Shown: one piece after another, positions 26,254-48,256 of the stretch | How the letters are laid out: each line of letters begins with the position of its first letter | Position numbering within the stretch: position 1 is the stretch's first letter | Assembly (NCBI RefSeq): GCF_028745735.1 | Contig: NZ_JAQZSM010000021.1 | Location: forward strand, 1-64,000 | Origin: Roseinatronobacter alkalisoli | GTDB lineage: Bacteria > Pseudomonadota > Alphaproteobacteria > Rhodobacterales > Rhodobacteraceae | Reading direction: 5' to 3' | DNA length: 64,000 bases | Notes under the pieces: generated by a model | What the model was told of the DNA's origin: nothing | Seen by the model: the letters and a program-made list of their open reading frames with translations, nothing else | The model's database searches: none | Position numbers and translations under genes: made by a program

Positions 26254-26267
26254 CCGGGAGGCACGCC

Positions 26268-26528: not shown

Positions 26529-26530
26529 GC

Positions 26531-27907: not shown

Positions 27908-28593
27908 ACCTCTTCAGACGACCTGCAACGCATTACGGCAAAACGCCGGAACCAGAGACTCCCTATCAGAAGGCTGCGCAGATCTGGGACGAGCGTATCG
28001 GCTCGGCCCGTGCGCAGGCGAGAAACTGGCGGTTCATGGCCTTTGGCTGTCTGATCCTTTCGGCAGGCTTCGCCGCTGCCCTTGTCTGGCAGTCGGCGCG
28101 CGGGACAGTGGTGCCCTGGGTTGTTCAGGTCGACAATCTCGGCCAGGCGCAGACCGTCGCCCCGGCGGCTGCCGATTATCGTCCCACCGATCCCCAGATC
28201 GCCTTCCACCTCGGCCGCTTCATCGAGCAGGTTCGCGCGATCCCCGCCGACGCCATCATTGTCCGGCAGAACTGGCTGCGCGCCTACGAGTTCACCACGG
28301 ATCGCGGCGCAGCAGCCCTGAACGACTACGCCCGCGCCAACGACCCGTTCACCCGCGTCGGCCGCCAGCAGGTCGCCGTCGATGTGTCATCGGTGATCCG
28401 GGCATCGCCGGATTCCTTTCGCGTTGCCTGGACTGAGCGCCACTATGAGAATGGCCAGCTTTCCACAACCGAGCGTTGGATCGCGATCCTGACAATTGTC
28501 ATCCAGACCCCGCGCGACGCCGAACGTCTGCGCGCCAACCCACTCGGCATCTATGTCAACGCGATTTCATGGTCACGGGAGATGAGCCAATGA
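27904..28593 (+). CDS. trbF: TrbF (VirB8-like) channel protein
   Basis: This 229-aa protein has a cytoplasmic N-terminus, one membrane segment (FMAFGCLILSAGFAAALVW) and a VirB8-type periplasmic domain with VPWVVQVDNLGQAQ, AYEFTTDRG and FRVAWTERHYENGQ. It links the inner- and outer-membrane parts of the channel. Its stop lies in ATGA, a form that normally couples trbF to trbG, but here an antisense cupin gene lies in between. Confidence 0.9.
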   Translation: MNLFRRPATHYGKTPEPETPYQKAAQIWDERIGSARAQARNWRFMAFGCLILSAGFAAALVWQSARGTVVPWVVQVDNLGQAQTVAPAAADYRPTDPQIAFHLGRFIEQVRAIPADAIIVRQNWLRAYEFTTDRGAAALNDYARANDPFTRVGRQQVAVDVSSVIRASPDSFRVAWTERHYENGQLSTTERWIAILTIVIQTPRDAERLRANPLGIYVNAISWSREMSQ

Positions 28594-28601
28594 TCACCAC
28601 C

Positions 28602-28967
28602 TCAGATTGTCGCCCCCTGCGGAGCCGTGAAGGTGTCATCAACGACATTCCCGGTGTTCAACACCTCGGCGGGCTCGAAGATCAGGATCTCCGCTTCTTC
28701 GTCGGCCGCTGTCCGGTGCTCGACGCCACGCGGGACGACGACGAACTCTCCCGGTCCCAGATCACAGATCCTGTCGCGGAACTCGACACGGAAACGTCCT
28801 TTCCAAACGAGGAACATCTCCTCGCAGTCGTCATGATGATGCCAGGGGAAGACACCCTGGACCTTGACGATCTTCACTTCCTGCCGGTTGAGGCTGGCGA
28901 TCACTTTCGGACGCCAATGTTCCGAGAAAAGCGAAAGTTTCGTGTCAATACTGCCGGTCTGAATCAT
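28602..28967 (-). CDS. Small cupin protein inserted head-on in the trb operon
   Basis: This 121-aa single cupin shows FPWHHHDDCEEMFLVWKG (metal-binding His/Glu set) and LGPGEFVVVPRGVEHRT (second cupin motif). The minus strand has AGGAG about 11 bases before the ATG, so it carries its own ribosome site, and that site lies in the DNA immediately before trbG. Such proteins bind a metal or small ligand; the role is unknown. It is not a usual trb gene, and it is oriented against the operon. Confidence 0.85.
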   Translation of the reverse strand: MIQTGSIDTKLSLFSEHWRPKVIASLNRQEVKIVKVQGVFPWHHHDDCEEMFLVWKGRFRVEFRDRICDLGPGEFVVVPRGVEHRTAADEEAEILIFEPAEVLNTGNVVDDTFTAPQGATI

Positions 28968-29006
28968 GTGCCCCGTTCTCCTAAAAGATTGTTTCGTCGT
29001 CCCTTT

Positions 29007-29975
29007 ATGTATTCATGGGGTCTCGCGTTTGCCAGTTTGGTTCTGGCGGGCTGCGCGACCAATAGGACACCGCAATTCAGTTACGACGACGACGTGCCGC
29101 CGCTGCCCAGTGTCCAGATGGCCGCTGCCGATGACAGGCCGCGTCCGCTGCATACGCCCCCGGCCTGGACTGTCGGGCGCGGCGGCGCGGCTGCTGAAAC
29201 GTCGGCTGGCCGTGTGGAGAACGCCAATGCTGCCGCACGTGTCGAGCCACGCCGGGAAGGTTACTACAACGCTATCCAGATCTACCCATGGAGCGAAGGC
29301 GCGCTCTATCAGGTCTATGCCGCCCCCGGCCAGATCACCAGTATCGCGCTGGAGCCGGGCGAGAGCTTGACCGGCGCGGGACCGATTGCAGCAGGAGATA
29401 CTGCCCGCTGGATCATCGGCGACACCGAGAGCGGATCGGGAGCAAACCGTCGCGTCCATATTCTCGTCAAGCCGACCCGTCCTGACATCGCGACCAACCT
29501 TGTCGTGACCACAGACCAACGCACCTACATGATCGAACTGCGCGCCCGCGAAGCCCTTTATATGCCGTCCGTGGCATGGGCCTATCCCGCGCCGCCAGCC
29601 GGCCAGCGCCAGACCGTTCCGGCCGCGCCTGTCATTCCGGCCGAGGTCGGGCGCAACTATCGCTATGGGTTGACTGGTGACACGCCACCCTGGCGGCCGA
29701 TCACCGTCTTCGACGATGGCCGCCGTGTCTATGTCATCTTCCCGCACGGCATCGTGCAGGGCGAAATGCCGCCGCTCTTCGTGCTCGGCGCCGATGGTGA
29801 GCCGCAGGTCGTTAACAGTCGTGTCCATCAGAATACCCTCATCGTGGACCGGCTGTTCGGCGCGGCTGAGTTGCGCCTTGGAAGCGGTAACCGGCAGCAA
29901 ACGGTCAGGATCACACGCATCGAAGAGCAGCAGGCAACCACCCGACCCGCATCCACCGGAGGTTCGCGGTCATGA
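29007..29975 (+). CDS. trbG: TrbG (VirB9-like) channel protein, 5' end altered
   Basis: The body is clear: a lipobox-like LVLAGC, then TPPAWTVGRGG, EGYYNAIQIYPWSEGALYQV, PGQITSIALEPGE, WIIGDTESGSG and THILVKPTRPD-type beta repeats. It is a VirB9 family outer-membrane-complex protein. I start at 29,007 (MYSWGLAFASL), which gives 322 aa but a signal sequence without positive charge. The frame is open back to the trbF stop, yet that part lies over the antisense cupin gene and its ribosome site. The native start was probably lost when the cupin cassette arrived, so the true start is uncertain. Confidence 0.8.
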   Translation: MYSWGLAFASLVLAGCATNRTPQFSYDDDVPPLPSVQMAAADDRPRPLHTPPAWTVGRGGAAAETSAGRVENANAAARVEPRREGYYNAIQIYPWSEGALYQVYAAPGQITSIALEPGESLTGAGPIAAGDTARWIIGDTESGSGANRRVHILVKPTRPDIATNLVVTTDQRTYMIELRAREALYMPSVAWAYPAPPAGQRQTVPAAPVIPAEVGRNYRYGLTGDTPPWRPITVFDDGRRVYVIFPHGIVQGEMPPLFVLGADGEPQVVNSRVHQNTLIVDRLFGAAELRLGSGNRQQTVRITRIEEQQATTRPASTGGSRS

Positions 29976-31108
29976 CTGAAAACACTGACATTATGGACGC
30001 TACTGCCCCGATGCGGCTGCGTGCCGAGCCGCCGCGTGTTACCCGCCTGTCCCGCAAGATGCTGGCGGGTGTTGCTGCGGTCGCGCTTCTCGGCATCGGC
30101 GGAGCGCTGGTCTACGCGCTTCAGACCCGCGATGCCGGACAGGGCGGGGGCGAACTCTATTCGACCGAGAACCGGCCCACGGCGGATGGTCTGAACGAAC
30201 TTCCGGGCGACTATACCGGCCCGGTTCTGGGGCCAGCGCTGCCCGGTGATCTCGGCCGCCCGATCCTCGATGCGCAGGAGCGTGGGCAACCGATTGCACC
30301 GCCCGCAATAATGACACCTGCCGTCGATCCGGAGGAAGAACGCCGCCGTGCCGAGGAAGAGGCTGCACGTCTCAGCAATGTGTTCTTCCAGTCCGGACCG
30401 CGCACAGGGACGCCAGCCGGAACAGCCGCAGGCCTTGCCGGTCTCGACCTTGGCGGGCAGCCGGCAACGCAGGATCGGCATTCGGCTTTCCTGAACGCCC
30501 CTGCGGACCGGCAGATCGTCGCCCCGGATCGCGTCGTGCCGCCTGCCTCGCCCTATATCCTGCAGGCCGGTTCGGTGATTCCGGCGGCACTCATCACCGG
30601 CATCCGTTCCGACCTGCCGGGCCAGATAACAGCGCAGGTGACCGAAAACGTCTATGATAGCCCGACCGGCTCGCTGCTCCTGATCCCGCAAGGCACGCGC
30701 ATCATCGGGGAATACGATGACGGCGTGACCTTTGGTCAGCGCCGGGTGCTGCTCGTCTGGAACCGACTGATCCTGCCGGGTGGACGCTCCATCGTTCTGG
30801 AACGCTTGCCGGGCGCAGACGTCAGCGGTTACGTGGGTCTTGAGGATGGCGTCGATTATCATTGGTGGGATCTGATGAAGGCTGCCGGACTCTCAACGCT
30901 GCTTTCAGTCGGAACCGAGCTCGCCGCCAGCGACGAGGACCGCCTGATTCGCGCCATCCGTGACGGGGCGCAGGACACCATCAATCAGGCAGGTCAGCAG
31001 ATCGTCCAGCGCCAGTTGCAGGTCGCGCCGACGCTCACCATCCGCCCGGGCTTCCCGGTCAGGGTCATCGTAACCCGCGATTTAGTTTTCGAACCAGCCG
31101 GAGGTTGA
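29972..31108 (+). CDS. trbI: TrbI (VirB10-like) channel protein
   Basis: This 378-aa protein has one membrane segment (MLAGVAAVALLGIGGALVYAL, near residues 30-50), a proline-rich periplasmic linker with a charged EEERRRAEEEAARL helix, and the VirB10 beta-barrel core (YILQAGSVIPAALITGI, LIPQGTRIIGEYD, GVDYHWWDLMKAAGL). It spans the envelope and senses ATP use by the motor proteins. It overlaps trbG by four bases. Confidence 0.93.
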   Translation: MTENTDIMDATAPMRLRAEPPRVTRLSRKMLAGVAAVALLGIGGALVYALQTRDAGQGGGELYSTENRPTADGLNELPGDYTGPVLGPALPGDLGRPILDAQERGQPIAPPAIMTPAVDPEEERRRAEEEAARLSNVFFQSGPRTGTPAGTAAGLAGLDLGGQPATQDRHSAFLNAPADRQIVAPDRVVPPASPYILQAGSVIPAALITGIRSDLPGQITAQVTENVYDSPTGSLLLIPQGTRIIGEYDDGVTFGQRRVLLVWNRLILPGGRSIVLERLPGADVSGYVGLEDGVDYHWWDLMKAAGLSTLLSVGTELAASDEDRLIRAIRDGAQDTINQAGQQIVQRQLQVAPTLTIRPGFPVRVIVTRDLVFEPAGG

Positions 31109-32930: not shown

Positions 32931-33043
32931 TGTTGATTGTCACTGAGACCTGACCCTGCAGCGACCAAAATTGTCACCGAGAACTGACCCATGTGCAACC
33001 TTTCCCCGGCGTGAATCAGCTGGGGATTATCGGAGTGTTAGAC

Positions 33044-34573
33044 ATGGGATTTTTGAGAATTATTCGGAAGTGGGCGTTGCGTGACGGGATGCCCATTCGC
33101 GAGATTGCACGGCGGACGGGTGTATCTCGAAACACGATCAAGAAGTATCTGCGGGCGGGGATTGTCGAGCCAGAATTTCAAACACCGGACCGCCCGAGCA
33201 AGTTGGATCCGTATGCTGAGAAGCTGACAGCCTGGCTGGTGTCTGAGCAGCGCAAATCACGCAAGGAACGGCGCACGGCCAAGCAGATGCATGCCGATCT
33301 GGTGCAGCTTGGATTTGACGGTTCCTATGAGAGGGTCGCGGCCTTCGTGCGGGACTGGAAGGGCGAACGACAGCGCGCACAACGCACGGCAGATCGCGGG
33401 GTCTTCGTGCCGCTGGTGTTCCAGCCTGGCGAGGCATTCCAGTTCGACTGGAGCGAGGACTTGGCCTATGTCGGCGGTGAGCGCATCAAGCTTCAGGTGG
33501 CCCATATCAAGCTGTCGCACAGCCGGGCGTTTCTTGTGCGGGCCTATTTGCTGCAGACACATGAGATGCTGTTCGATGCGCATTGGCATGGCTTCCGGGT
33601 GTTTGAGGGCGTGCCGGGACGCGGCATCTACGATAATATGAAGACCGCCGTCGACCGGGTTAGGGCTGGCAAGAAGCGCGATGTGAATGCGCGGTTTTTA
33701 GCGATGACCAGCCACTATGTCTTTGATCCCGAGTTCTGCAATCCAGCTGCGGGCTGGGAGAAAGGACAGGTCGAGAAGAATGTGCGTGATGCGCGTCACC
33801 GGCTCTGGCAGCTCATGCCAGCCTTCCCGGACCTTGAAGCGCTGAATGGTTGGCTGGAAGAACGCTGCAAGCTTCTTTGGGCTGAGACTGCACATGGAGC
33901 ATTGCCCGGAAGCATTGCCGATGTCTGGGAGGTCGAGAAGCCGACCCTGATGCCACTTCCCACGATGTTCGACGGGTTTGTCGAAGAGAGAAAGCGCGTG
34001 TCACCCACCTGCCTGATCAACTTTGATCGGAACCGCTATTCTGTGCCAGCCAGTTTCGCGAACCGTCCTGTTAGTCTGCGCATCTACCCTGAACGGCTGG
34101 TGGTTGTGGCAGAAGGCCATGTGGTCTGCACGCATGAGCGCATCATTGAACGATCCCACCGCCAGCCAGGGCGCGTCATCTATGACTGGCGGCATTATCT
34201 GGCAGTAGTTCAACGCAAGCCCGGAGCGTTGCGCAATGGCGCGCCATTCGTCGAGATGCCGGAACCCTTCCGCAAATTGCAGGCGAAGATACTACGTAAG
34301 CCAGGCGGAGACCGAGAGATGGTCGATATCTTGTCGCTGGTTTTGCATCATGACGAACAGGCCGTGCTGTGTGCAGTGGACCTGGCACTGGAGGCTGGCG
34401 TGCCCACCAAGACCCATGTGCTGAACCTGCTTCACAGGCTGGTGGACGGAACACCGACAGACCGACCCGATGTGACCCCACCGCCAGCCCTTTCTCTGAG
34501 CAAAGAACCCGAGGCCAATGTCGCGCGCTACGACGTGCTACGCACCACGGGAGGAACACGCCATGCGTCATGA
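33044..34573 (+). CDS. istA: IS21 family transposase IstA
   Basis: This 509-aa protein has an N-terminal helix-turn-helix ([20 protein letters not shown]) and an rve-type DDE core: D in [15 protein letters not shown] in [15 protein letters not shown], and E in [17 protein letters not shown] start it at ATG 33,044 ([10 protein letters not shown]). The open frame upstream begins within the IS end and is unlikely to be used. It overlaps istB by 11 bases. Confidence 0.92.
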
Positions 34574-35354
34574 TCCAGCGGGAGCTGCCATCGTCATCAT
34601 GCTGCGGAGCTTGAAGATGCCTGGCATGGCACATGCTGTGCAAGATCTGCTTGAACAGGGATCACCCGCTTTCGAAGCATCCATGCCAATGTTGTCACAG
34701 CTGCTCAAAGCCGAAATGGCAGAACGCGAGGTGCGTTCCGTCGCCTATCACATGAAGGCCGCCCGCTTTCCGGCCTACAAGGACCTCTCCGGCTTCGACT
34801 TTGCCGCCAGCGAAATCCGTGAAGCCTTGGTGCGCCAACTCCATCGCTGTGAATTCCTGGATGGTGCCGAGAATGTGGTGCTGATCGGCGGCCCCGGAAC
34901 CGGGAAATCACATGTGGCAACGGCCCTTGGCATTCAGGCAATCGAACATCACCGCAAACGCGTGCGCTTCTTCTCGACCGTCGAACTGGTTAACGCTCTG
35001 GAGCAGGAAAAAGCCCAAGGCAAGGCTGGGAAGATCGCCGAGGCGCTGGTGAAAACTGATTTGGTGATCCTGGATGAGCTGGGATATTTGCCATTCAGTG
35101 CATCAGGCGGCGCATTGCTCTTCCACCTCCTAAGCAAACTCTACGAACGCACCAGCGTCATCATCACCACGAACCTGAGCTTCAGCGAATGGGCAACCGT
35201 CTTCGGCGACGCCAAAATGACCACCGCGCTGCTCGATCGCCTCACTCATCGCTGCCATATTCTCGAGACCGGCAATGACAGCTACCGCTTCAAGGCCAGC
35301 TCCGAGACAGCGAAAAAGAAAAGGAAGGAGACAGCGGCATTGACGACAACATAG
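34563..35354 (+). CDS. istB: IS21 family helper ATPase IstB
   Basis: This 263-aa AAA+ protein shows Walker [18 protein letters not shown], Walker [18 protein letters not shown], and the IstB pattern [20 protein letters not shown]. IstB selects the target DNA and activates IstA. It starts at ATG 34,563 inside the end of istA. The basic C-terminal tail is typical. Full length. Confidence 0.92.
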
Positions 35355-35427
35355 CGCTGAGAGCATAACCACTGGGTGGGTCAGATCTCGATGAAAATGC
35401 CGGGTCAGGTCTCAGTGACAATCAACA

Positions 35428-35745
35428 AGGTTGGGGCCTGAATCCCGAAAACCACTACGATCTTTCTGGCAAAACGGCTAATCTTTTGCCGTGCCTCGCC
35501 GATGAGCAAAGTCCGGAGGCCGCGCTCATTCGGAACCTTGTGACGATCACAGTGATCGATGATGGTTCGGGTATGGGAAACGACGCCATCCGTGAGGCAT
35601 GGATGGTCATCGGAACAGCGAACAAAGAACTTGATTCTTCATCCAAGCTTGGGCGCACCAGGACCGGAGCCAAAGGGATCGGCAGATTCGCGCTTGATCG
35701 ACTGGGAGCACGATGCCAACTGCACTCGAGCACCATCACAGAACG
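35428..35745 (+). pseudogene. GHKL ATPase gene, second fragment
   Basis: In frame with the 5' part it encodes the G1 box TVIDDGSGMGNDAIREAW and, after the lid region, RTRTGAKGIGRFALDRLG, the G2-like box. ATP-binding residues D and G are present, so the protein was active before disruption. Homology stops near 35,740, where IS481 sequence takes over, so the C-terminal domains are missing and cannot be identified. The left 9 bases are the second copy of the IS21 target duplication. Confidence 0.78.
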
Positions 35746-36221
35746 TGGTGACCCAACTCGTCGAGAAGGCAGACAGGAAGTCCGCCTGAGAGTTCTTGCA
35801 GATCATGCTCGAAGCAGTGCCTTATCGCGTCCACACCATTTTGACCGACAACGGCATCCAGTTCGCTGAGCAACCACGCAATCGCAACACCGCATATTCA
35901 AGGCCAATGCGTTTCGACATGATCTGTGAGGCCAATGGTATCGAGCATCGCCTTACCAAGCCAAACCATCCGTGGACCAACGGTCAGGTGGAGCGCATGA
36001 ACCGCACGATCAAAGACGCGACGGTCAAGCGTTTCCACTACGATGACCACGACCAACTGCGCACCCACTTGGCGGACTTCATGGCAGCCTACAACTTCGC
36101 GCGCAGGCTCAAGACCCTCGGCGGTCTCACGCCCTATGAATACATCTGCAAGATCTGGACATCCGAGCCAGACAGATTCATCCTAAACCCGATCCAACAG
36201 ATGCCGGGACTGAACACCTTA
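35745..36221 (+). pseudogene. IS481-family transposase, C-terminal remnant
   Basis: The sequence encodes the second half of an IS481 transposase: VVTQLVEKADRKSA, then an in-frame TGA (35,787-35,789), then EFLQIMLEAVPYRVHTILTD, NGIQFAEQPRN, PNHPWTNGQVERMNRTIKDA and GLTPYEYICKIW. The catalytic DNGIQF aspartate and the GQVER glutamate are present, but the N-terminal half is missing and the frame is broken. The family ending PGLNT lacks its stop and runs into IS110-type sequence. End positions are approximate. Confidence 0.8.
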
Positions 36222-37380
36222 TGGTTAGCAACTGTATCTCTCAGGGCGCCGGGGCCGCCCATTTCTGTCGGTTCTTGCATAGCGCGTTCGCGATGGTGAC
36301 CAGCTTTCTGGCGACGGCGGTGATGATGACCTTGTGCGGCTTGCCAGCCTTTCGGAGGCGATCTGCGAATGACTTCAGGCTTGGGTTGTGATGTGCTGCG
36401 ACTAAGGCCGCCTGGAACATCACGTGCCGCAGGGCACGGCGACCACCGGCGATTGCTCGTTTCCCGCGAAGGGTTTCGCTGTCATGCGCGACCGGGGCCA
36501 AGCCGGTGAGTGCGGCGGCTTCTTCGCCGGTGATGGTGTCGATCTCGGGCATTTCTGCGATCAGAACCGTGCTGGCAACCGGGCCGATGCCCGGGATGGA
36601 ACGGAGAACGCCGGCCATCTCCGACAGCTGATTATCGCTCGCGATGGCCCGGGTGATCCGGTCTTCCAGTTCCTTGATCAGGCTGTCGATCCGTTACTTC
36701 AACTCGGTGCCGAGGTCCTCGAACATCGCGGCGGTGCCCAGTTTCTGATGTGCGCGGATTTGGGCCAGTAGCCGTTTTCGCATCTCGACCAATTGTGCTC
36801 GTTTTGACGTCAAGGCTCTGAGAATGCGTAGCTTTTCTGCGGGGAGACTGCGTCCTGCTTCGGGGCGGAAAGCAAAGAAGCGGGCGATGAGTTCCGCATC
36901 GATCCGATCGGTCTTGGCGCGTGTGCCACGGCTTTGTGCAAACGCCTTCACCTGAGCGGGGGGCACCTGGCGGGCCGCTACACCTTCTGCCTCCAAAAGC
37001 ACCCAGAGCGGCCATTCCTGACCGCCAGTCGATTCAAAGCAGACAACGGCATCCCGATCCCGGGCAAGATCCGCTACGACAGCATGACCTGCCGGGGTGT
37101 TTGGGGCTCTGCAGCAGTGCCCATCGGGGAGGCAATGAACGTCAAGCCAATCGCGGCTGACATCTATGCCGATAACGCGGCCATGTGATAGATCGTCCAT
37201 GCTCTCTTCCTTCTGGTGCGCGGTCCTGCAAGGCCGCAATCAACTGTTCGAGACGATGAAGAGAGGCGGTGCCGAAAGGCTAAGAAACGTGGTCATGCCA
37301 CAAGGGTCAGACGTCGCGCACCACCCCGCCATCGGCCCTGGCCGGGGCCGGGGCCAGTTTAGCAAAACCCAGTTACAGAA
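36222..37380 (-). mobile_element. IS110-family element, approximate limits
   Basis: The element contains one minus-strand transposase gene (36,241-37,200) with a non-coding stretch on its 5' side (to about 37,380), where IS110 elements encode their guide or recombination RNA. IS110 elements lack inverted repeats and often make no target duplication, so the ends given are estimates from where IS481 homology stops and unrelated sequence begins. The 263 bases between the transposase start and druA otherwise show no gene. Confidence 0.6.
36241..37200 (-). pseudogene. IS110 transposase with internal stop codon
   Basis: From ATG 37,200 (MDDLSHGRVIGIDVSRDWLD) the frame encodes the DEDD RuvC-like domain, with ESTGGQEWPLW and TDRIDAELIARFFAF. 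It is interrupted by TAA at 36,694-36,696 (codon 169) within GTELK-stop-RIDSLIKELE. The same frame continues to 36,241 with the C-terminal HhH/Tnp20 part SIPGIGPVASTVLIAEM, TGLAPVAHDSETLRGKRA and RRALRHVMFQAALVA. Without the stop it would be 319 aa, a usual length. One nonsense mutation has therefore inactivated an otherwise complete gene. Confidence 0.85.
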
Positions 37381-37502: not shown

Positions 37503-38732
37503 ATGAACGGCAAAAACGCAATAATCAATGTTGCCTCTCGCGAGGCTAATATAAAACGGAAGTTGCGCCGACATCTGCATGCACTAGGCTTTGAGAAGTC
37601 CGACGAGGGTGCGCTTCGCATTCGAGGGTCCGGTAAGGACATTGTTCGCACACTACACCGCGCGCAACGGCAAGAGCGGCTCTGGGTAAACCGCGAGTTC
37701 ATTGCTGCCAAGACCGAGAAGCTGCTGAGGCATTTTGCGTCTGGCAAGGAAATTGATCCTACGAGGATATCACCGGTACTCGAACGCGTATCTGCGGGAA
37801 CTCCGCAAGGCGATCTGTTTCGCCTCGCGTCGCTGACATGGTCAGTTCCGGTTTCAAATGGGTTCGGCAGGCGGCTGCGGTATCTCGTCTGGGATGAAAG
37901 CAACGGTAAGCTGATGGGCCTCATTGCCATCGGAGACCCGGTCTTTAACCTTGCGGTTAGGGACAGACTCATTGGCTGGGACAGCCATGACAGAAGCGCC
38001 CGTCTCGTCAACGTGATGGATGCTTACGTTCTTGGAGCCATCCCTCCCTACAACGAGTTGCTGGGCGGGAAACTTGTAGCCTGCTTGCTTCGGAGCCGGG
38101 ACTTATACGACGATTTTGCGCGCACCTATGGCGGTTCCACCGGAATAATCTCGAAAGAGGAGAAAAAGGCGCGACTGCTCGCTGTTACCACATCGTCATC
38201 AATGGGGCGATCGTCGGTCTACAATCGTCTCAAGCTTGGGGGGCAGCAGTATCTGAAATCTATCGGCTACACAGGAGGTTGGGGGCACTTTCATATACCG
38301 GATCGGTTATTTTTGGAGTTGCGCGATTACCTGCGCGATATCGACCATAACTATGCAGACCAGCACCGTTTTGGCCAAGGGCCAAACTGGCGTTTGCGAA
38401 CTACAAGGGCAGCACTTTCAGCGCTCGGGTTCAAGGAAGACATGTTGCGGCACGGAATTCAGCGTGAGGTCTTCATTTGTGAACTAGCCAAGAACGCAGT
38501 CAAGATATTGCACACCGGCAAGGGGAAGCCTGACGTCGGAGAACTCCTCTCTGCCAAAGAAATATCTGAACTGGCGCTTGAGCGCTGGATGGTGCCTCGC
38601 GCCAAGCGCAGGCCTGAGTTCAAGGACTGGGATTCGAGCGATCTTGTTGACCTCTTTGGAAATCAGACCCGTCTGCTGCGCAACCAGCTTAAAAGCTCCG
38701 ACCTGTTCAAGGATACGGCCTCGGGGTCATAG
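37503..38732 (+). CDS. druA: Druantia DruA-like protein (DUF4338)
   Basis: This 409-aa protein has the DUF4338 core of DruA: RYLVWDESNGKLMGLIAIGD, then RLIGWDSHDRSARLVNVMDA, AIPPYNELLGGKLVACLLRS, and a later GRSSVYNRLKLGG with GWGHFHIPDRLF. DruA is the marker of type I Druantia anti-phage systems; its biochemical role is not established. It starts behind a GGGGGATAG ribosome site. The next gene begins 6 bases after its stop. A large DUF1998 helicase three genes on supports the assignment. Confidence 0.85.
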   Translation: MNGKNAIINVASREANIKRKLRRHLHALGFEKSDEGALRIRGSGKDIVRTLHRAQRQERLWVNREFIAAKTEKLLRHFASGKEIDPTRISPVLERVSAGTPQGDLFRLASLTWSVPVSNGFGRRLRYLVWDESNGKLMGLIAIGDPVFNLAVRDRLIGWDSHDRSARLVNVMDAYVLGAIPPYNELLGGKLVACLLRSRDLYDDFARTYGGSTGIISKEEKKARLLAVTTSSSMGRSSVYNRLKLGGQQYLKSIGYTGGWGHFHIPDRLFLELRDYLRDIDHNYADQHRFGQGPNWRLRTTRAALSALGFKEDMLRHGIQREVFICELAKNAVKILHTGKGKPDVGELLSAKEISELALERWMVPRAKRRPEFKDWDSSDLVDLFGNQTRLLRNQLKSSDLFKDTASGS

Positions 38733-38738
38733 TCGGCC

Positions 38739-41600
38739 ATGGTTGTGCCTTTGGACCAATGGCAGGAGCGAATGGAGCGGCATTTTGCGTCGCTTGCAGA
38801 GCGTCGCGCGACGTCCGGGTTTCCTCTCTTTGCGCTGGAGCATGGCCTGGATGAAGGTGAACTGGAGGAAATCGGCAAGCAACTACGGGCACGCCTCAAT
38901 ACGGGGCTGAGACTGGCGCCGCACTGGTTGCTCTGGACAATCTACGCAGCAGAGAGGGGATACACCTACGAAGGCGGTGAATATTGGCAGTCTTTTGAGG
39001 ATGTCACACCTGGTTGGGATTCCCGAGACCGGTACCGGGTTACGGCTTGGTTCTCGAAATTCCAATCAACCTACAATGGCGTGGTTCCTTCCGGACCATG
39101 GGCATCGCATTTCAGCATAATCGCCTGGCCAATCACCCATGCGGTCTTACCGCGCTATCTGCAGCAGCAGTTTGCCCGGACGTTATATGATCTGCGATTC
39201 ATGCTTGCGCGGCTGACGACGATCGAGCCTGCGGTAATTGGCCGTTTGATCGCCAATAATGTCTACCATGCGTCGACACGATTCGAGCAGTTTCTCCAGC
39301 AAGAAGAACTGGTCGGCCGTATCGTCCTTGCGCTTCTGCACCAAGATCTACGTGAAGGTGAAGAGCCGCTTCTGCCCGCTACGCTCGATCGGATCGTTGC
39401 CGATCTTGAGCAGATGCGACACGCCCGCAGTTGGCTGAGAGAAGCGAGTCGCGTTGTAGCTGACCGCTTCAAAGGCATTGGTCGCGGCGCCGCGCCTACA
39501 TCTTCCGGTGAAGTCCAGGCTTCAGCGGAACGGCAGTTGCAGGAAGCCAGGCCTGATATCCGGCCCGATTTGCGCTTGCGATATGTCGGCGACGGGCGTT
39601 GGACGCTCGTGATTGACGTCCCCAATTTCAAGGCAATTGCCGCAGTCAACCCGGATATTCGGCAATTTCTTCGGCAGTCCCGTTCGAAGTTGAACGGCGA
39701 TGACGTCAGGCGGCCGGCTGGCTGGGTCCTGTCCGGTAACCGCCGTGCGGTTCTTAAGGCATGGCCAGACCCGTCCAGACCGCTGGTCAGTTTCGAGTCA
39801 CCCAACGGAGTCGTTGATCATCTTCTTGAGAGCGAATGCCGGATGAGCCCAGGCCCGATTTGGCTCTTTCGCATCGGCGGCGACGGCACCGCCCGCGAAA
39901 TTGTCAGCCGCCTGATGCGCCCCGGTTATGCTTACATCCTGGCGTCGCCCGATGAATTTGAAGACTTGCAAGAAGGCATGACAGGTTGTGCCATCGACTG
40001 CAGCGATATCTGCGCTGTCCGAGTTTCGGTGCCTTCCGATGTGTCCGACGATTATATGCAATGGCTGCGGAGGCGGAATCTGGAACTTGCAAGAACCATC
40101 CGTGTCTGGCCTGCGGGTTTGCCCGGCCGGAATTGGGATGGAGAAGGGCGCAGTGAATGGCTGACATCCGAGAGCCCGTGTTTCGGAATCGTTCCGGATC
40201 ACCCGGTGGACTCCTACATCGTCACACTCGATGACGGCGCGGCAATGGCCTTCCAGGCCGGGGAACCGGGAGAACCAACCTTCATTCAGCTACCGCAACT
40301 GGCGGCGGGGACACATCGGCTCAACGTCAAGGCGCGCCGCAGTGCGGCTCTGGATGGACTCGGGGGGGTGCCCACGCATGAGGGGTATCTGGAGCTCAGG
40401 GTACGCGAACCTGAACCGTGGATCCCCGGGACGAACTCGCATGTAGGTTTGGTGGTCACGAGCAACCCGCATGACGCCGCACTGGACGTGTTTTGGGAAA
40501 ATGAGTTGGACCTCACGGTTTTCGGACCCGAAGGCCGTCAGGTCATCCCGCATGTGAGCCTTGAGGATGCCAAAGGCGAGGAGATCTACAGTGCTCAGGT
40601 CTGTCCACCGATGGACCTGCCGATCTTCCCGGAAACTTGGAAAAAGCGATTTCTGGAGTACCTGCGGCGGGAAAATGCCGAGTGGCGCTACCTTGAAGCC
40701 GCTTCTGGCCTTCTCACTATCGAGGGGCAGGAACTTGGGCGGTTCGATGTTCGGTTCGATCACGATGCACTGCCGGTTCGCTGGGTACTGCGCCATCGAG
40801 GCGAAGCTGTTTCGCTTCGGCTTGTCGACGATACGGGGCAAGAAGGCGCGGAACCGAAATGCCGCTTTTTCAGCATGGAGACGCCAACCCGGATCGAGCG
40901 CCTCGATGCTGGGAGTGCCCTTTCGGGATTCGATGTTCAGTCCCCAGGCGGGCTCTTTATCACCCAAAACGGTAAGTTCCGGGACTTGGTAATCGTCAGC
41001 ACCGGGCTGTCCGGCAGCGGCTTGGAGGGCTTGGGCGTTCAGCCTGTCTACGACAGTATTGCCGATAGTCCCAAATCTATCATCAAGCATATGAGAATAT
41101 TGCGCTACTGGAGGACAGCGCGGCTCGCAGGCTTCCTTGCCAACGCGCGGCGGGCTCAGGTGGTGATTGGTCTGACCACTCGTCTCCACGGCGCCCTGGC
41201 CGGGCGAGACTGGGGCCGGGCCGAGGCTGCTTTCATGAGAAGCAATGATCGGGAGAATGGTTTCGATCATCTGCAATCGTTGCTTGATCACAGGGGTGGT
41301 TTTCCGGCCGTGCTGCGGCGCGATGCCGTGAGCATCGAGGGAGGAAGAAAGGCGATCGCGAGTTGGTATGCCGAGTTGGCCGCGCGCTATGGCGTTTGCT
41401 CCGATCAAGCGCTTTGCACCCTGGCAGTCGACATAGCCAGTCGGCCGCACGAGGTGCCGCGCCTTTACCGTGACAGGCTGCCGGCGCTTCTCAAACGCAT
41501 CATGGCGAAGCCACTGTTGCTGCGCGGCGCTCGCATTGTCGCACTTAGCCACGCCTGCGCGGACAATGGACCTGCAGAATTGCTGCCGAGGTGGGAATGA
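38739..41600 (+). CDS. Druantia-operon protein, 953 aa, family not recognised
   Basis: I recognise no catalytic motif. The N-terminal third is helical with conserved-looking LAPHWLLWTIYAAERGYTYE and GPWASHFSIIAWPITHAVLP. The rest reads as beta-rich domains (RYVGDGRWTLVIDVPNF, PTFIQLPQLAAGTHRLN), and the C-terminus is helical again. It occupies the position where type I Druantia normally encodes smaller DruB and DruC proteins, so it may be a fusion or a replacement of them. Four-base overlap with the next gene shows it is part of the operon. Confidence 0.7.
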   Translation: MVVPLDQWQERMERHFASLAERRATSGFPLFALEHGLDEGELEEIGKQLRARLNTGLRLAPHWLLWTIYAAERGYTYEGGEYWQSFEDVTPGWDSRDRYRVTAWFSKFQSTYNGVVPSGPWASHFSIIAWPITHAVLPRYLQQQFARTLYDLRFMLARLTTIEPAVIGRLIANNVYHASTRFEQFLQQEELVGRIVLALLHQDLREGEEPLLPATLDRIVADLEQMRHARSWLREASRVVADRFKGIGRGAAPTSSGEVQASAERQLQEARPDIRPDLRLRYVGDGRWTLVIDVPNFKAIAAVNPDIRQFLRQSRSKLNGDDVRRPAGWVLSGNRRAVLKAWPDPSRPLVSFESPNGVVDHLLESECRMSPGPIWLFRIGGDGTAREIVSRLMRPGYAYILASPDEFEDLQEGMTGCAIDCSDICAVRVSVPSDVSDDYMQWLRRRNLELARTIRVWPAGLPGRNWDGEGRSEWLTSESPCFGIVPDHPVDSYIVTLDDGAAMAFQAGEPGEPTFIQLPQLAAGTHRLNVKARRSAALDGLGGVPTHEGYLELRVREPEPWIPGTNSHVGLVVTSNPHDAALDVFWENELDLTVFGPEGRQVIPHVSLEDAKGEEIYSAQVCPPMDLPIFPETWKKRFLEYLRRENAEWRYLEAASGLLTIEGQELGRFDVRFDHDALPVRWVLRHRGEAVSLRLVDDTGQEGAEPKCRFFSMETPTRIERLDAGSALSGFDVQSPGGLFITQNGKFRDLVIVSTGLSGSGLEGLGVQPVYDSIADSPKSIIKHMRILRYWRTARLAGFLANARRAQVVIGLTTRLHGALAGRDWGRAEAAFMRSNDRENGFDHLQSLLDHRGGFPAVLRRDAVSIEGGRKAIASWYAELAARYGVCSDQALCTLAVDIASRPHEVPRLYRDRLPALLKRIMAKPLLLRGARIVALSHACADNGPAELLPRWE

Positions 41601-42673
41601 CAATCACCGAACTCACCCCGGATGAGGTTTTAGGCTACTGCCGGGCTTCGCTTGGAATAGGGACCGAGCCTTCCGGGCTTGACGACATCCTGCTGGCCGG
41701 CCTCTTGCGTCGTGCAGCAGGAATACACTGTCCATGTTCAAGGTCCGCGCTGCGTGCTGCCCTCACAGAAAGCCTCGCATACTTAAATCCGGATCGCGGC
41801 GCACTTGCTGATCAGTTGGACAATTTGATTGAGGCCATGATCGTCGCCGGCGACTTGTTGGAGTTATCCGACGTCGCGACCGATGATCCTGAGGTCAAGG
41901 GAACTTGGGTATTTGCAGCGCCACCATCTTTTGTAGTTCGCCGTACCGGAAACATCTTCCTGACCGGATTCGCTCCCGATCAGGATGGCTTCCTGCCGGA
42001 ACACCTGGCCCGGCGCGTGATCCGCTCCCACGTGACGCAGTTTATCGCGCCTGAGCCCGGCGAGGATCTGATCGAGCAATTGATCGCGCACGGGTTGCAT
42101 CAGTTGTCCGAGGCCGTCTGGCTCAGATCGCCTAAGGCGCAAGCCCCAGAACAACTGATCCAACGTTTCGAAAATCAACTGGCCTCTCAGCCGACGTGCG
42201 GCCCGGTATCCGGTCTCGAAATACTCGATCGGGATACCAAGGTCACTTACTATCGCGGCCGATGGAGCGCACCGAGTGGCCAGACCGGAACATTCGTCGC
42301 ACGCCGCCCGCAGGAGTTCGGAGCGCCCCTCTGGAGCTTTGCCGAACTCGTTGATGGCACGCTGAAGCGCATCGTCGATCTGCCTCCCAAGCATTATCGT
42401 TGGCGCGGATGCGATGCCGCGTGGCATCTACAAATGGCGATCGACCGCAGTGCGGGACAGCCACAGCAATACCGGCGCGGCTCGACAGATGCCGGTGTTC
42501 GTTTCGATTTCTTTTCGCCGTTGCCACTCTGGGCGCAGCGCCGATTGATGGTTCTCGGTCACGAACGTCCACGCAGCAGCAGCTTGTTCGCGTACGAGAT
42601 CCCCGTGGCAGAGGCGGCAGAAGAAGAAAAAAACCTTCAGGAAAGCTTGTGGCTGGCGCCGACGGACGCGTAA
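41597..42673 (+). CDS. Druantia-operon protein, 358 aa, family not recognised
   Basis: The start ATG overlaps the preceding stop (ATGA), and druE follows after 21 bases. The protein has a helical N-terminus (LLRRAAGIHCPCSRSALRAA), a middle with SFVVRRTGNIFLTGF, and a basic C-terminal half with KVTYYRGRWSAP and PKHYRWRGCDAAWHLQMAI. I see no known enzymatic motif. By position it would correspond to DruD of type I Druantia; this is inference from gene order. Confidence 0.7.
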   Translation: MTITELTPDEVLGYCRASLGIGTEPSGLDDILLAGLLRRAAGIHCPCSRSALRAALTESLAYLNPDRGALADQLDNLIEAMIVAGDLLELSDVATDDPEVKGTWVFAAPPSFVVRRTGNIFLTGFAPDQDGFLPEHLARRVIRSHVTQFIAPEPGEDLIEQLIAHGLHQLSEAVWLRSPKAQAPEQLIQRFENQLASQPTCGPVSGLEILDRDTKVTYYRGRWSAPSGQTGTFVARRPQEFGAPLWSFAELVDGTLKRIVDLPPKHYRWRGCDAAWHLQMAIDRSAGQPQQYRRGSTDAGVRFDFFSPLPLWAQRRLMVLGHERPRSSSLFAYEIPVAEAAEEEKNLQESLWLAPTDA

Positions 42674-42694
42674 GAATATGGGAGGGGGACAAGT

Positions 42695-45600
42695 ATGCAG
42701 ACAATTAAAGAAACCATAGAAAATCTGCACAGCTCGCTGAGTGACTATATCGAGGCGACGTACCACATCAGTGCCCCGTCGTTGATTGCGCAGCGGCAAC
42801 GCCTTCTTGAACGTGATGGCGTAATTCATCGCGTCCCTTATCTTGAGTCGACGCCCAAATACCAAACGGGCGATACATTCGGCTCAATGATTGGACTGCC
42901 GCCGGCAGCGCAGACGCTCTTTTCACGATTGAGTGCTCCGAGAGACGGCCGTCCCCGGTTGATCTACGACCCTCCCTACAAGCACCAGGCCGAGTCGCTT
43001 CGTCACAATCTCATCGACGGAAAAAACCTGGTCATTATGACCGGGACTGGTTCGGGAAAGACGGAATCCTTCCTTCTTCCGATCCTGGGCAAATTTGCGC
43101 AGGAGGCGCAGACGCGTCCCGGCGTCTTCGCCGAGCAGCCGGCGATGCGGGCACTGATCATGTATCCCATGAATGCGCTTGTGAACGACCAATTGGGACG
43201 CCTTCGCGCATTGCTGGGCGATCCGCGTCTTGTCAGCACGTTCAAGGAGTGGTGCGGCCGCCCGCCTCGGTTTGCCCGATACACAAGCCGTACGCCCTAT
43301 GCGGGCATTCGCACGTCGAAGAAGGATTCGTCGCGACTACAAGCCTTTGATAGCTTCTACGTCGATGTTCTCAGGCGTGCGGATAGCGACGATGCGGATG
43401 AGAAGGCACAGGCTGTTGAGTTGCTAACCGCCCTGAAGGATCGTGGTAAATGGCCAGCAAAGCCCGATCTTGAGGCCTGGTACGGACAAAAGGGCAGCGC
43501 CTGGCAAGACCGGAAGACGGGAGAGTTCGTCAGGGCGGTTACGCTACCGGACGATTCCGAATTGCTGACTCGACACGAAGTCCAGGCCACGCCACCTGAC
43601 TTGCTCGTCACGAACTATTCAATGCTCGAATATATGCTCATGCGACCGATTGAGCGGCCAATCTTTGACAGGACGCGTGAGTGGCTTGCTGACAATCCGG
43701 ATGAGACTTTTCTGGTGGTGCTCGACGAAGCGCACCTCTATCGCGGCGCCGCCGGCGCGGAAGTGGGATTGCTGCTAAGACGGCTGCGCGACCGGATCGG
43801 CGTCCCCGAAGAACGTTTCAGGGTCATCTGCGCGACAGCCAGTTTCAAAGATGCGGGTTACGCTCCGGCGTTTGGATCGCAGCTCTCGGGCATCCCGGCT
43901 CATACCTTCGTTCCAATCGAAGGCACACTTGATCTCAAGGAAGGTGCCGGGAAGGGAACGTTGGCGGACGCCGAAGCCCTGTCCGGGATTGATCTGAATG
44001 GGTTCTACGAGGCGGACACCGACGATGCCAAGCTGGCATTGATCACGCCGTTGCTCGACTACCGAGACGTCACGGGTGCGGAATCAACAGAACGAGGGCT
44101 CTTCGATGCGCTGAAATCAATTCCTCCAATGTGCGCGCTGATCAACGCGACGATGAAGGAAGCCCGGCCTATCGCTGAACTTGGCACCTTTCTGTTTGCC
44201 GATGATGTACCGTCCAAAATGGCCGACGAAGCCGTCACTGTCTTGATGGCGCTCGGTAGCATTGCGAGGCCGGAGCCAAACCTGCCCGGACTGCTGCCAT
44301 GCCGCATCCACTACTTCTTTCGGGGCCTGCCCGGTCTTTGGGTCTGTATGGACCCGGACTGCAGCGAACTCGCGGAGGATCAACGTGATGGCATCTGCGG
44401 GAACATGTACTCGCAGCCGTCAGAAGAATGCGGCTGCGGGGCCCGGGTGCTTGAGCTGTTCACCTGCCGAAACTGCGGAACCGCCTACGCTCGCGCTTAT
44501 ACCGACGACGTCGATTCACCGCGTGCTCTCTGGTCCGAGCCGGGTGAGCAGTTGCGCATGGCGAGTGGCGAGACAAACCCGTTGCTGCCTATCGACTTGC
44601 TTCTTGAGCAGCCTGCGCACGACGATGGCGCGGAACCTGCCGACTACGATCTGGAAACAGGACAGCTGAATCCGCTCTCCCCCGGACCCCGCATGCGAAC
44701 GGTCTTCATACGGCAGGACCGGCTCAACGATACGGCCGACGACGAGAATGAGAACGATACCAGTTTCGAGTCGCGCGGCCAGTTCACACCGTGCGCCGTT
44801 TGCGGCAAGACCGCGCGCTTTGGGCGAAGCTATGTGCAGGACCATCAGACCAAGGGCGACCAGCCCTTTCAGGCGTTACTGGCCCGACAAATTCAAATTC
44901 AGCCTCCTGGGCCACAGGAAGCGACACCCTTTGCACCTTTGCGCGGCCGCAAAGTGCTCGCCTTCTCGGACTCCCGACAAGTGGCAGCTCGTCTCGCACC
45001 AAATCTGCAGATGTATTCCGAGCGGGATTCTCTACGCCCCCTGATCATCAGTGGCTTCAATTGGCTCAAGGAACAGGATGCAATTCGTCCTCACCTGAAC
45101 CTCGACGACCTATATTTTGGTGTGTTGCTCGCCTCCAAACGCCTGAACGTGCGTCTGCGTCCGGAAATGCGGGGTGGAGAAAACTTTGATGCTGAAGAGG
45201 TTGTAGACGAGGCGGTCCACAAAGATGATCTGGATGATCCGTCGACCTTATTGAGCCTGCTGCTGGAAATTCGGTCACACCGCCCTCCGGAGTCACTGCT
45301 TAGCAGCATGCTGACGACCTTGACCGATAGGTTTTGGGGAATGGAACCCCTGGCGCTCGCAACGTTGAAAGAAAGCGATCGCCACACAAAGAAAATACTG
45401 GGCCTACCGTCGATACCGGGGGTCGCTGAGACCGACGAGGCCAAACTTGCGATTGCGCGCTACTGGTTGCGGTGTTGGAACAACAACGGCTTCAGGCTTG
45501 CGCAGATGCCGGGCACCTGGATCAATCGCCCGCCATCAGAAGGATTTCGGGTCAAGCCGCGAAACCCGAAAGCCAAGATCAAGGCGATTGAATCCGTCAT

Positions 45601-48256
45601 CGACGATAAGGCCGCCAGGAAGATCTTTTGGGATAGTTGGTCGCCAGAACTGCTAAAGTGGTTCACGCAATCGGTGGAGAGTGGGTATCGTTGCCTGAAC
45701 GGCAGCGAGCTTTCGCTCCAGTTTGATGGCGCCTGGGTGCATTGCTCAAGTTGCAAATCAGTCCATCGTCCTATCCCCGGCATTGAAAGCTGCCTTGACT
45801 GCGGAAGTGATACCGTCTCCGCCCTTGATCCAGATGCCGACCAGGTCTTCCTTGCGCGCAAAGGTTTTTATCGCAAACCGGTTACGCAGGCCCTTGAGGA
45901 TCCGCCGCGGCAGCCGATGGCGCTCATTGCCGCTGAGCACACCGCCCAGCTCAACGCACCGCAAAACGAGGATGTGTTCTCCAAGGCGGAAGAGAATGAG
46001 CTCTTATTCCAGGATATCGCGCTAAGCGGAAGCGGCCTCGGCGGGCGTTCCACCGCGATCGACATTCTGTCCAGCACGACGACGATGGAAGTCGGTATTG
46101 ACCTCGGGGCCTTGTCGGGCGTGGCCCTGCGGAACATGCCACCGGGGCGCGCCAACTATCAGCAGCGGGCAGGCCGCGCGGGTCGCCGCGGCAATGCTGT
46201 GGCCACAGTCGTAGCGTTTGGGAGCGCAGACAGCCACGATGAGCACTATTTCTCCCAGCCCGACGAGATGATCCGGGGAGATGTGATCGACCCGAAGTTG
46301 ACATTGGACAACCCCGAGATCGTGCGCCGTCACATCCGCGCGTTCCTCTTGCAGAACTATCACCAGGATCGTCTTCCGATCATCGACCCGGACCAGCCAC
46401 ACGACCTGTTTTCGGTTCTGGGAAGCGTTTCCGGCTTTCGAAAGGCGGATTCACTTTTGAATCGGGACGACTTCGCCGTATGGCTCGCCGGTAACGAGGT
46501 GGCGTTGCATACGCGTATAGCCGGCTGGATTCCGGAGCAGTTATCCAAAGAAGATCGGGCCCTTCTCCTCGGCGAATTCGTCAATGATTGCCTTCAAGCT
46601 GTGGATGAGGCCATCGCTCCTGGTCCAGGCGAGGAGGATGAAAGTGAGGATGGAGACGATGAAGCCGGGGGCGATGAGGAAGCGGCCGAAGAGGGAGAAG
46701 AACGGCCGCAGCAAGCGTCCAGTCCAGGCAAGATGCTGGACCGGCTCCTCTACTGCGGGAAGCTTCCCCGATACGCATTTCCGACCGATGTTGCGACCTT
46801 CCACGTATTCGATCGCGACCGGTCGTCCCGCCACCGGCACATCATGAAGTTCGCGCCCTCTCAGGGTTTGCCGATAGCGCTATCCCAATATGCTCCGGAC
46901 AAGCAGGTCTGGATTTCGGGCAAGTGTTATACATCGGGTGCGATCTACTCGGTCATGAAGGACGACCGCTTTCAGGCATGGGAGAACAAGCGTCTCTACA
47001 TGGAATGCAGCGATTGTGGTTTTGCCCGAACGTTCGACACGGGCGAAATCGTCCGCAACGACACGACCGACTGCGAGGCCTGCGGCGGTGAAAGCACATT
47101 TGGTCCCGCCCGCTACTGGATACGGCCGCCGGGGTTCGCGCATCCGGTCAGCGTCGAAGAGATGACGTCGCCTGATGAAATCCCGGAAACCAGCTATGCC
47201 ACGCGCGCAAAATTGACGATGGGCACGCCCGGAGACGATGAGGGCTGGACCGAAGCCAACGAGCGCATTCGTAGCCTGAAAACCCGGCGGCATCTCTTGG
47301 TGTCGAATACCGGCCCGCAGCAGGAGGGATATAACTACTGTGTCAAATGCGGGCGAATAGAAGCGAGCAACACGCCCTCGCCGATGCTGGCGGCGCCGCA
47401 TCGCAAGCCTTTCCCGGACGATGACGACAAGCTCATGTGTGACGGAATCGGACCAAGTCGCCATTTGGTGCTCGGGACTGACTTCATTACGGACATCGCC
47501 CTGTTCTCAATGCGCGTAGCCGCGCCGCTCAAGCTGAAGCCGGGGCACTACTCAACGGACGTAGCGCTGCGAACTGCTAGCGAAGCGCTGGCCAAGGCGG
47601 CATGCCAGATACTGGAGATCGAGCCCGGCGAGTTGATGGCCGAGTATCGGCCGGCGCTTACCCCGGCCGGCAAGAGCGGGTTGGAAGCAGAGATCTTCCT
47701 CTATGACACGCTTCCTGGCGGCGCCGGTTTTGCAAGTCAGTTTGCAGATCGGGGACTTGAGCTGTTTCAGCGCGCACTCCACTTGCTGAAAGCCTGCCCC
47801 GAGGACTGTGACGCTTCGTGCTACCGCTGTTTGCGGAGCTTCAAGAACAAATTCGAACATCGCCTGCTCGACAGGCATGTCGGAGTCGAACTGCTGGAAT
47901 ATCTGCTGACAGGACAGAACCCCGGATTCAGCGTTGAACGCCTCAAGCGATCTACCGCCTTGCTGCTGAACGATCTCCTCCGGCGCGACGAAGGGATGGC
48001 GACATTCGAGGCTGGCCCAATAATCACCTATGGGAATGGGAAGGCAGTCACAGCTCCAATTCTAGCTGAATGCAAAGGGCGGAAGTTCGTCATTGCGCTT
48101 TCCGGTCCTTTGACGACAGGTCATCCCGCTGATCCTGCCATTGCCGAACTTCGGGACAGCGGCACCGAGTATCAAGTCATTGTGGAGAATGAACTTGTCA
48201 TTCGGGGGAACCTCCCAACAGCAACACGTACCATCTACCAACAGATTACCGGTTGA
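42695..48256 (+). CDS. druE: Druantia DruE-like giant helicase (DEAD/DUF1998)
   Basis: This 1,853-aa superfamily 2 helicase has Walker A VIMTGTGSGKTESFLLPIL near residue 118, motif II LVVLDEAHLYRGAAGAE near 342, motif III-like VICATASFKD, and the C-terminal helicase lobe with LSSTTTMEVGIDLGALSGVA and YQQRAGRAGRRGN near 1,120-1,160. Cys pairs near 555-600 and 1,440-1,470 look like zinc-binding modules. The C-terminal DUF1998 region carries YDTLPGGAGFASQF and a final CPEDCDASCYRCLRSF cluster. DruE is the common core of all Druantia types. It has a strong ribosome site (GGGAGGGGGACAAGT). Confidence 0.9.
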   Translation: MQTIKETIENLHSSLSDYIEATYHISAPSLIAQRQRLLERDGVIHRVPYLESTPKYQTGDTFGSMIGLPPAAQTLFSRLSAPRDGRPRLIYDPPYKHQAESLRHNLIDGKNLVIMTGTGSGKTESFLLPILGKFAQEAQTRPGVFAEQPAMRALIMYPMNALVNDQLGRLRALLGDPRLVSTFKEWCGRPPRFARYTSRTPYAGIRTSKKDSSRLQAFDSFYVDVLRRADSDDADEKAQAVELLTALKDRGKWPAKPDLEAWYGQKGSAWQDRKTGEFVRAVTLPDDSELLTRHEVQATPPDLLVTNYSMLEYMLMRPIERPIFDRTREWLADNPDETFLVVLDEAHLYRGAAGAEVGLLLRRLRDRIGVPEERFRVICATASFKDAGYAPAFGSQLSGIPAHTFVPIEGTLDLKEGAGKGTLADAEALSGIDLNGFYEADTDDAKLALITPLLDYRDVTGAESTERGLFDALKSIPPMCALINATMKEARPIAELGTFLFADDVPSKMADEAVTVLMALGSIARPEPNLPGLLPCRIHYFFRGLPGLWVCMDPDCSELAEDQRDGICGNMYSQPSEECGCGARVLELFTCRNCGTAYARAYTDDVDSPRALWSEPGEQLRMASGETNPLLPIDLLLEQPAHDDGAEPADYDLETGQLNPLSPGPRMRTVFIRQDRLNDTADDENENDTSFESRGQFTPCAVCGKTARFGRSYVQDHQTKGDQPFQALLARQIQIQPPGPQEATPFAPLRGRKVLAFSDSRQVAARLAPNLQMYSERDSLRPLIISGFNWLKEQDAIRPHLNLDDLYFGVLLASKRLNVRLRPEMRGGENFDAEEVVDEAVHKDDLDDPSTLLSLLLEIRSHRPPESLLSSMLTTLTDRFWGMEPLALATLKESDRHTKKILGLPSIPGVAETDEAKLAIARYWLRCWNNNGFRLAQMPGTWINRPPSEGFRVKPRNPKAKIKAIESVIDDKAARKIFWDSWSPELLKWFTQSVESGYRCLNGSELSLQFDGAWVHCSSCKSVHRPIPGIESCLDCGSDTVSALDPDADQVFLARKGFYRKPVTQALEDPPRQPMALIAAEHTAQLNAPQNEDVFSKAEENELLFQDIALSGSGLGGRSTAIDILSSTTTMEVGIDLGALSGVALRNMPPGRANYQQRAGRAGRRGNAVATVVAFGSADSHDEHYFSQPDEMIRGDVIDPKLTLDNPEIVRRHIRAFLLQNYHQDRLPIIDPDQPHDLFSVLGSVSGFRKADSLLNRDDFAVWLAGNEVALHTRIAGWIPEQLSKEDRALLLGEFVNDCLQAVDEAIAPGPGEEDESEDGDDEAGGDEEAAEEGEERPQQASSPGKMLDRLLYCGKLPRYAFPTDVATFHVFDRDRSSRHRHIMKFAPSQGLPIALSQYAPDKQVWISGKCYTSGAIYSVMKDDRFQAWENKRLYMECSDCGFARTFDTGEIVRNDTTDCEACGGESTFGPARYWIRPPGFAHPVSVEEMTSPDEIPETSYATRAKLTMGTPGDDEGWTEANERIRSLKTRRHLLVSNTGPQQEGYNYCVKCGRIEASNTPSPMLAAPHRKPFPDDDDKLMCDGIGPSRHLVLGTDFITDIALFSMRVAAPLKLKPGHYSTDVALRTASEALAKAACQILEIEPGELMAEYRPALTPAGKSGLEAEIFLYDTLPGGAGFASQFADRGLELFQRALHLLKACPEDCDASCYRCLRSFKNKFEHRLLDRHVGVELLEYLLTGQNPGFSVERLKRSTALLLNDLLRRDEGMATFEAGPIITYGNGKAVTAPILAECKGRKFVIALSGPLTTGHPADPAIAELRDSGTEYQVIVENELVIRGNLPTATRTIYQQITG

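Follow-up and report, generated by a model that had tools for sequence, protein, structure and literature searches.

The stretch of Roseinatronobacter alkalisoli DNA analyzed here (64,000 nucleotides, referred to as the window) probably carries an anti-phage operon of the Druantia type that belongs to a separate sub-lineage, with the gene order druA-P953-druD-druE-H655 and with the last gene, H655, truncated in the window copy. We infer the anti-phage defence function of the operon from sequence, and the roles of its proteins would be those proposed below. The genes, all on the forward strand, are as follows.

37503..38732, + strand: DruA, 409 aa (DUF4338/PF14236); PADLOC DruA1 709 bits, Pfam DruA 277 bits
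38739..41600, + strand: P953, 953 aa; without a PADLOC, Pfam or NCBIfam match, in the slot of DruB plus DruC
41597..42673, + strand: DruD-like protein, 358 aa (ATG at 41597); PADLOC DruD1 models PDLC00010 445 bits and PDLC00012 391 bits
42695..48256, + strand: DruE, 1853 aa, YprA-family SF2 helicase with MZB; PADLOC DruE1 2045 bits
48262..48516, + strand: what is left of H655, the fifth gene, at its 5' end, located by tblastn and translation; homologous part 48262-48474/48477

Six bases separate druA from P953, P953 and druD overlap in an ATGA, and the gap 5' of druE is 21 bases. The first-pass annotation had called DruA and DruE clear and had placed two genes between them, the first encoding a 953-residue protein without a known domain. 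This description holds: the PADLOC scores of 709 and 2045 bits leave the identity of DruA and DruE clear, the open reading frames lie at the coordinates claimed, with 358 residues for the second gene when read from the ATG at 41597 (a GTG start at 41591 gives 360 aa, 41591-42673), and P953 was blank in the PADLOC scan up to an E value of 1 as well as in the Pfam and NCBIfam scans. The description of the operon as a four-gene variant proved incomplete; four genes do stand in the window, and most relatives add a fifth, which is truncated here. In DruE, Pfam placed DEAD, Helicase_C and MZB (MrfA zinc-binding) domains above cut-off and called no nuclease domain, and the related sequences in the PDB sequence search included two large helicases (9tu7, 9wae) and YprA (6znp). 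Insertion-sequence genes lie just upstream of druA (32993-36299; IstB, 265 bits, and an integrase-core fragment), and the genes at 21340-31108 have translations that we take to resemble a conjugative type IV secretion cluster.

By profile comparison, P953 is a different subunit from DruB and DruC, and the greater part of it is homologous to a family of SNF2-linked proteins of about 1000 aa. With a P953 profile of 14 rows (L063 and L077 left out) and a 7-row profile of the SNF2-linked homologs, hhalign returned Prob 99.9 and an E value of 2.4e-36 over 744 columns (residues 4-839), and the reversed SNF2-linked target used as a control gave Prob 0.2. HMM searches in both directions across 373 open reading frames gave matches at E values up to 0.1 that were confined to the P953 and SNF2-linked families. 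Against DruB and DruC, each represented by a profile of two rows (E. coli and P. putida), the P953 profile reached Prob 0.4 and 0.1, respectively; PADLOC found neither protein in the four window open reading frames, and tblastn of the window gave nothing scoring over 60 bits. Of the two options in the first-pass annotation, a DruB-DruC fusion or a different subunit, the second is thus the one borne out, and the fusion was rejected on this profile comparison with its two-row DruB and DruC profiles. Nevertheless, window-type and canonical (E. coli/P. putida) DruD, which share one PADLOC name, reach only Prob 20.8 (271 columns) at similar depth, so that a very remote link between P953 and DruB or DruC may exist.

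That P953 is a fused and strongly diverged DruB-DruC, so that two genes of an ordinary type I system would have merged here, is in our judgment very improbable. Such a fusion would account for the position of P953 in the gap between DruA and DruD, the same slot as DruB plus DruC, for its size, which is of the same order as E. coli DruB and DruC together (548+627 = 1175 aa), and for a window DruA that is 67-72% identical to canonical DruA. It is opposed by the hhalign probabilities of 0.4 and 0.1, from two-row profiles that leave room for remote structural homology, by the missing PADLOC match to DruB or DruC and by the existence of a stand-alone family of about 1000 aa that matches P953 over most of its length; moreover, the SMC-like stretch of P. 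putida DruC, itself a weak match, has no counterpart in the PADLOC scan of P953. Searches for additional DruB and DruC homologs returned the query's own record among plasmids, three short weak matches in 398 genomes, one in 274 genomes and none in viral contigs. When 299 genomes were searched for the DruC1 family, 124 gave a match; the matches listed were weak (best E value 8.9e-8) and fell mainly at model positions ~150-385, where P. putida DruC matches SMC-like models, and we set them aside.

An AlphaFold model of P953 from 8 rows was unusable (mean pLDDT 36.3), the wider family gave a single, irrelevant match to PDB sequences (E value 0.47), and the large partners of other Druantia types (L066, L067, L068, L070) did not match P953. 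The invariant residues of P953 are scattered along the whole protein.

The SNF2-linked homologs were found in eight loci (L003, L005, L006, L007, L018, L019, L020 and L022), and an SNF2 open reading frame adjoins the P953 homolog in seven of them, the exception being L006, near a record end; since L003 and L022 look like one locus (identical BLAST values), the count would become six of seven. The best models for the SNF2 proteins of L005 and L007 are DpdE, BrxHI and DrmD. L003, L005 and L022 have a second Druantia-like layout, consisting of DruE, a NERD-helicase and a weak DruD-like protein, with a long DruA in L003 and L005 and with the SNF2 and P953-homolog pair on the opposite strand. For example, L005 contains DruA1 (584 bits, long model), DruE1 (1528 bits), a NERD-helicase and DruD (22 bits), with two MzaB-like ATPase genes upstream. 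The remaining five loci (L006, L007, L018, L019, L020) combine a DISARM-like layout with the P953 homolog, and the SNF2 gene is adjacent in four of the five. PADLOC confirmed DrmA and DrmB in L007 only, a DISARM-like island of Rhizobium (682 and 282 bits, respectively). UvrD-like genes are annotated in L006 and L007, and BLAST found a NERD-helicase in L006, L007 and L019.

P953 itself was found in 16 loci, the window included. The others are those of Nitrosococcus watsonii plasmid pNWAT01 (L001) and Sinorhizobium medicae (L002, one of four matching plasmid records examined), contigs of Pacificimonas, Cucumibacter, Aquibium, Pararhodobacter, Maritimibacter, Paracoccus and Roseovarius (L024-L030), the IMG/VR contig L063 and the genomes L016, L017, L055, L056 and L077. 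Identity to the window P953 ranges from about 35% (L002) up to 88%. The order druA-P953-druD-druE is kept in 15 of the 16 loci. L002 lacks a druA match above 60 bits, its P953 is frame-shifted and an IS3 element splits its druE; elsewhere, a contig end falls inside druE of L056, and druE of L029 is read in two frames. Each of the seven gene pairs tested is under purifying selection, with dN/dS values of 0.04-0.14. For the comparison of the window with L026, the values were 0.11 for DruA, 0.13 for P953, 0.11 for DruD and 0.05 for DruE. The values for P953 against two relatives (0.13 and 0.14), the gene order kept in 15 of 16 loci and the ATGA overlap with DruD argue that P953 is a real gene.

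P953 is rare in the genome samples searched, with near-full-length copies in 3 genomes of a sample of 292 from the order and in 2 of 398 sampled from the phylum, both counts including the window's genome. Scans of viral contigs with P953, the P953 alignment and two SNF2-linked proteins as queries found one relative, L063, and none beyond it. One further locus, L057, with DruD and DruE of the same clade, was excluded from the 16 because it has no readable DruA or P953; at 11527-13008 its DruD gene begins with an N-terminal part that is unrelated to DruD, and neither DruA nor P953 was found, apparently because of a deletion. In addition, genome G139 has a short P953 match (residues 443-551, 39%), and no Druantia gene was found nearby.

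Directly 3' of druE, most relatives encode a protein of about 655 aa, H655, which was detectable in 14 of the 15 P953 loci in which the position is readable. It is complete in nine of the 16 loci (L016, via L073, L025, L026, L028, L029, L030, L055, L063 and L077), runs to a contig end in L024 and L027, is shortened in the window, L002 and L017, and is unreadable in L056. The Nitrosococcus locus has no detectable H655 and four other genes that are intact, which suggests that H655 may be accessory. In the window, tblastn matched the remnant at 96% over residues 1-71 of H655 (94% over 1-72 in a second search). After codon ~71-72 the sequence is unrelated and reaches a stop, the SF1-helicase part is missing, and no other H655 copy was found in the window's genome; the junction may be a misassembly. 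The unrelated sequence 3' of the remnant is followed by a glutamine synthetase gene, which is encoded on the opposite strand.

H655 is a helicase of the SF1 type and carries a candidate nuclease at its N-terminus. Its helicase region is of the SF1/Schlafen type according to Pfam (SLFN-g3, AAA_19 and UvrD, mostly below cut-off), and residues 126-453 match NERD-type helicases in profile comparison (Prob 98.3). At the N-terminus, a D-I-D ... I-E-x-K pattern is present in all eight rows shown, L070 included, and presumably resembles that of PD-(D/E)xK nucleases; the Pfam NERD model matched this end weakly (E value 0.069, in one of five fragments), as did the NERD-helicases in hhalign (8 columns, Prob 2.3). 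An AlphaFold model of H655 from 6 rows was unusable (mean pLDDT 35.8). An H655 homolog (35-38%) also follows a type II/IV-like DruE in L070 (2955-15651), where a 1013-aa protein without a clear domain is encoded upstream of DruE and genes for a cytosine methyltransferase and an MvaI/BcnI endonuclease follow.

Given the truncation, the window copy may be impaired. That it is a decaying, inactive system whose effector was removed with H655 is a real possibility, if one that we rather doubt: H655 is cut after ~71 codons in the window, L002 and L017 also have shortened copies, insertion-sequence genes lie close upstream, and an IS3 element interrupts DruE of L002. The other four genes of the window, however, are intact and under purifying selection, a result that carries little information on how long ago the truncation happened, and in Nitrosococcus four intact genes stand without a detectable H655. 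These same losses could also be read to mean that H655 is dispensable and that the effector is P953, as a hidden nuclease or another toxic enzyme. Of the 15 readable loci, 4 lack H655 or have a broken copy while P953 is kept (frame-shifted in L002), and DruE is without a Pfam-called nuclease domain. Nevertheless, we consider an effector role for P953 unlikely, as Pfam, NCBIfam and PDB-sequence matches to P953 are absent, the wider family yields isolated weak ones only, and its spread-out invariant residues point to no known catalytic site.

In the unrooted DruE tree, which has several long branches among the other rows, the P953-type proteins and L057, which was included, form one clade (100/100), and the split that sets this clade and the SNF2-linked L003 and L005 apart from the remaining rows has a support of 100/99. 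Type I DruE proteins of E. coli and P. putida group with a haloarchaeal protein (100/99) on the opposite side of this unrooted tree from the P953 type. The careful DruE tree was built without L024, L025, L028 and L029; L002, with its broken DruE, L056, with the contig end inside DruE, and L077 were left out of every DruE tree, and the DruA trees are without L002 and L077. Canonical DruA falls beside Nitrosococcus DruA, with bootstrap values of 96, 86 and 88 in three builds. In aligned sequence, window DruA is 72% identical to that of P. putida and 67% to that of E. coli, compared with 37% and 35%, respectively, for DruE, whereas within the P953 group DruA and DruE diverge in step (69/69 for L017, 75/76 for L027). 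This difference suggests that DruA was exchanged between lineages. The DruA tree points in this direction as well, but since a single clade of all P953-type DruA was not rejected by an AU test (p 0.234), we argue the exchange from identity levels. Read from its trees and identities, the locus is a mosaic in which DruE joins the SNF2-linked lineage and DruA lies near canonical type I.

In the mechanism that we propose for the operon, DruE would be the DNA-engaging motor, as extrapolated from work on Druantia III, and P953 would most likely be a sensor or adaptor that docks on the large helicase, DruE, and gates it, a role assigned by analogy. DruA and DruD would be accessory parts. In complete loci, H655, with its SF1-type helicase and putative N-terminal PD-(D/E)xK nuclease, would help to process or cut the DNA opened by DruE. 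A 2026 preprint on Druantia III argues that DruE is a shared core whose activation is set by subtype-specific partners; in it, DruE loads onto intermediates that contain ssDNA, and the partner typical of each subtype is proposed to detect infection and to govern activation (PMC13192584). A second report describes activation by a phage tail protein (PMC13316683). We regard a Druantia-type defence operon with these roles as the best explanation of the data because of the locus order (15 of 16), the homology of P953 to the SNF2-linked proteins, the SNF2 adjacency (7 of 8), the split in the DruE tree, the presence of H655 in 14 of 15 readable loci, the purifying selection and the core position of DruE in the preprint (PMC13192584).

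Relative to known systems, the operon is best labelled a sub-lineage of its own inside type I as broadly drawn by PADLOC. The new subtype raised in the first-pass annotation is reasonable in this sense of a sub-lineage, but DruA, DruD and DruE are already filed under type I by PADLOC. As in canonical type I (DruABCDE; E. coli, L061/L062), DruA, a protein in the DruD slot (weak against E. coli DruD itself) and a full-length DruE by PADLOC are present in like order. DruB and DruC, by contrast, were found neither by PADLOC in the four open reading frames, by tblastn in the window nor with the P953 profile, and are replaced by P953, which has no detectable homology to them; DruE is 35-37% identical, and P953 loci mostly add the fifth gene 3' of DruE. 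The SNF2-linked Druantia-like loci (Leisingera L005, Paracoccus L003 and G273 L022) resemble the P953 operons in having a P953 homolog and a NERD-type helicase, with a weak DruD-like protein in L005 and with a DruE in L003 and L005 that adjoins the P953 group in the tree (100/99). They differ in that their P953 homolog and its partner, an SNF2 helicase, are encoded on the opposite strand from DruE, their DruA-like protein is 659-686 aa (L005, L003) and two MzaB-like ATPase genes are present in L005. DISARM-like islands (Rhizobium L007 and similar layouts) likewise have a P953 homolog, with a NERD-helicase in L007, but their motor is DrmA plus the SNF2 helicase, and BLAST found no DruA or DruE in them. 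Window DruE scores far higher with DruE models than with DrmA (45 bits). The 25 families listed, of 42, for this protein do not include DrmB, and none of the other three proteins matched DrmB.

Druantia type III (DruH-DruE) also combines a DruE-family helicase with one large partner (>1000 aa). The STY4851-family protein beside the DruE3 gene of L067, which we take to be DruH, nevertheless has no P953-family profile match (Prob 0.2). The partners DruM, DruF and DruG (type II), DruH (type III) and DruF and DruL (type IV) were without a PADLOC match in the four open reading frames, where type IV is defined, and DruM and DruG are named for type II, as in PMC8565338, and the type III partner as in PMC13192584 and PMC13316683. 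No description of this gene set was found in the paper listings and passages searched, and an earlier mention may exist elsewhere; the same sources yielded no phage assay of this variant and, for Druantia type I, neither a worked-out mechanism nor domains for DruB and DruC.

Because P953 goes unrecognized by PADLOC, Pfam and NCBIfam, existing tools would probably call such loci incomplete type I systems. We suggest, at a little under even confidence, that P953 founds a family of portable helicase partners, which switches between motors of the YprA type (DruE) and the SNF2 type and links Druantia with DISARM-like immunity, having in this lineage displaced DruB-DruC, or the reverse, with DruA exchanged between lineages. 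The retention of DruA, DruD and DruE with one unrelated protein in place of DruB and DruC shows which parts of Druantia are exchangeable, and the P953 family, as a common subunit, connects Druantia with SNF2-linked, DISARM-like clusters.
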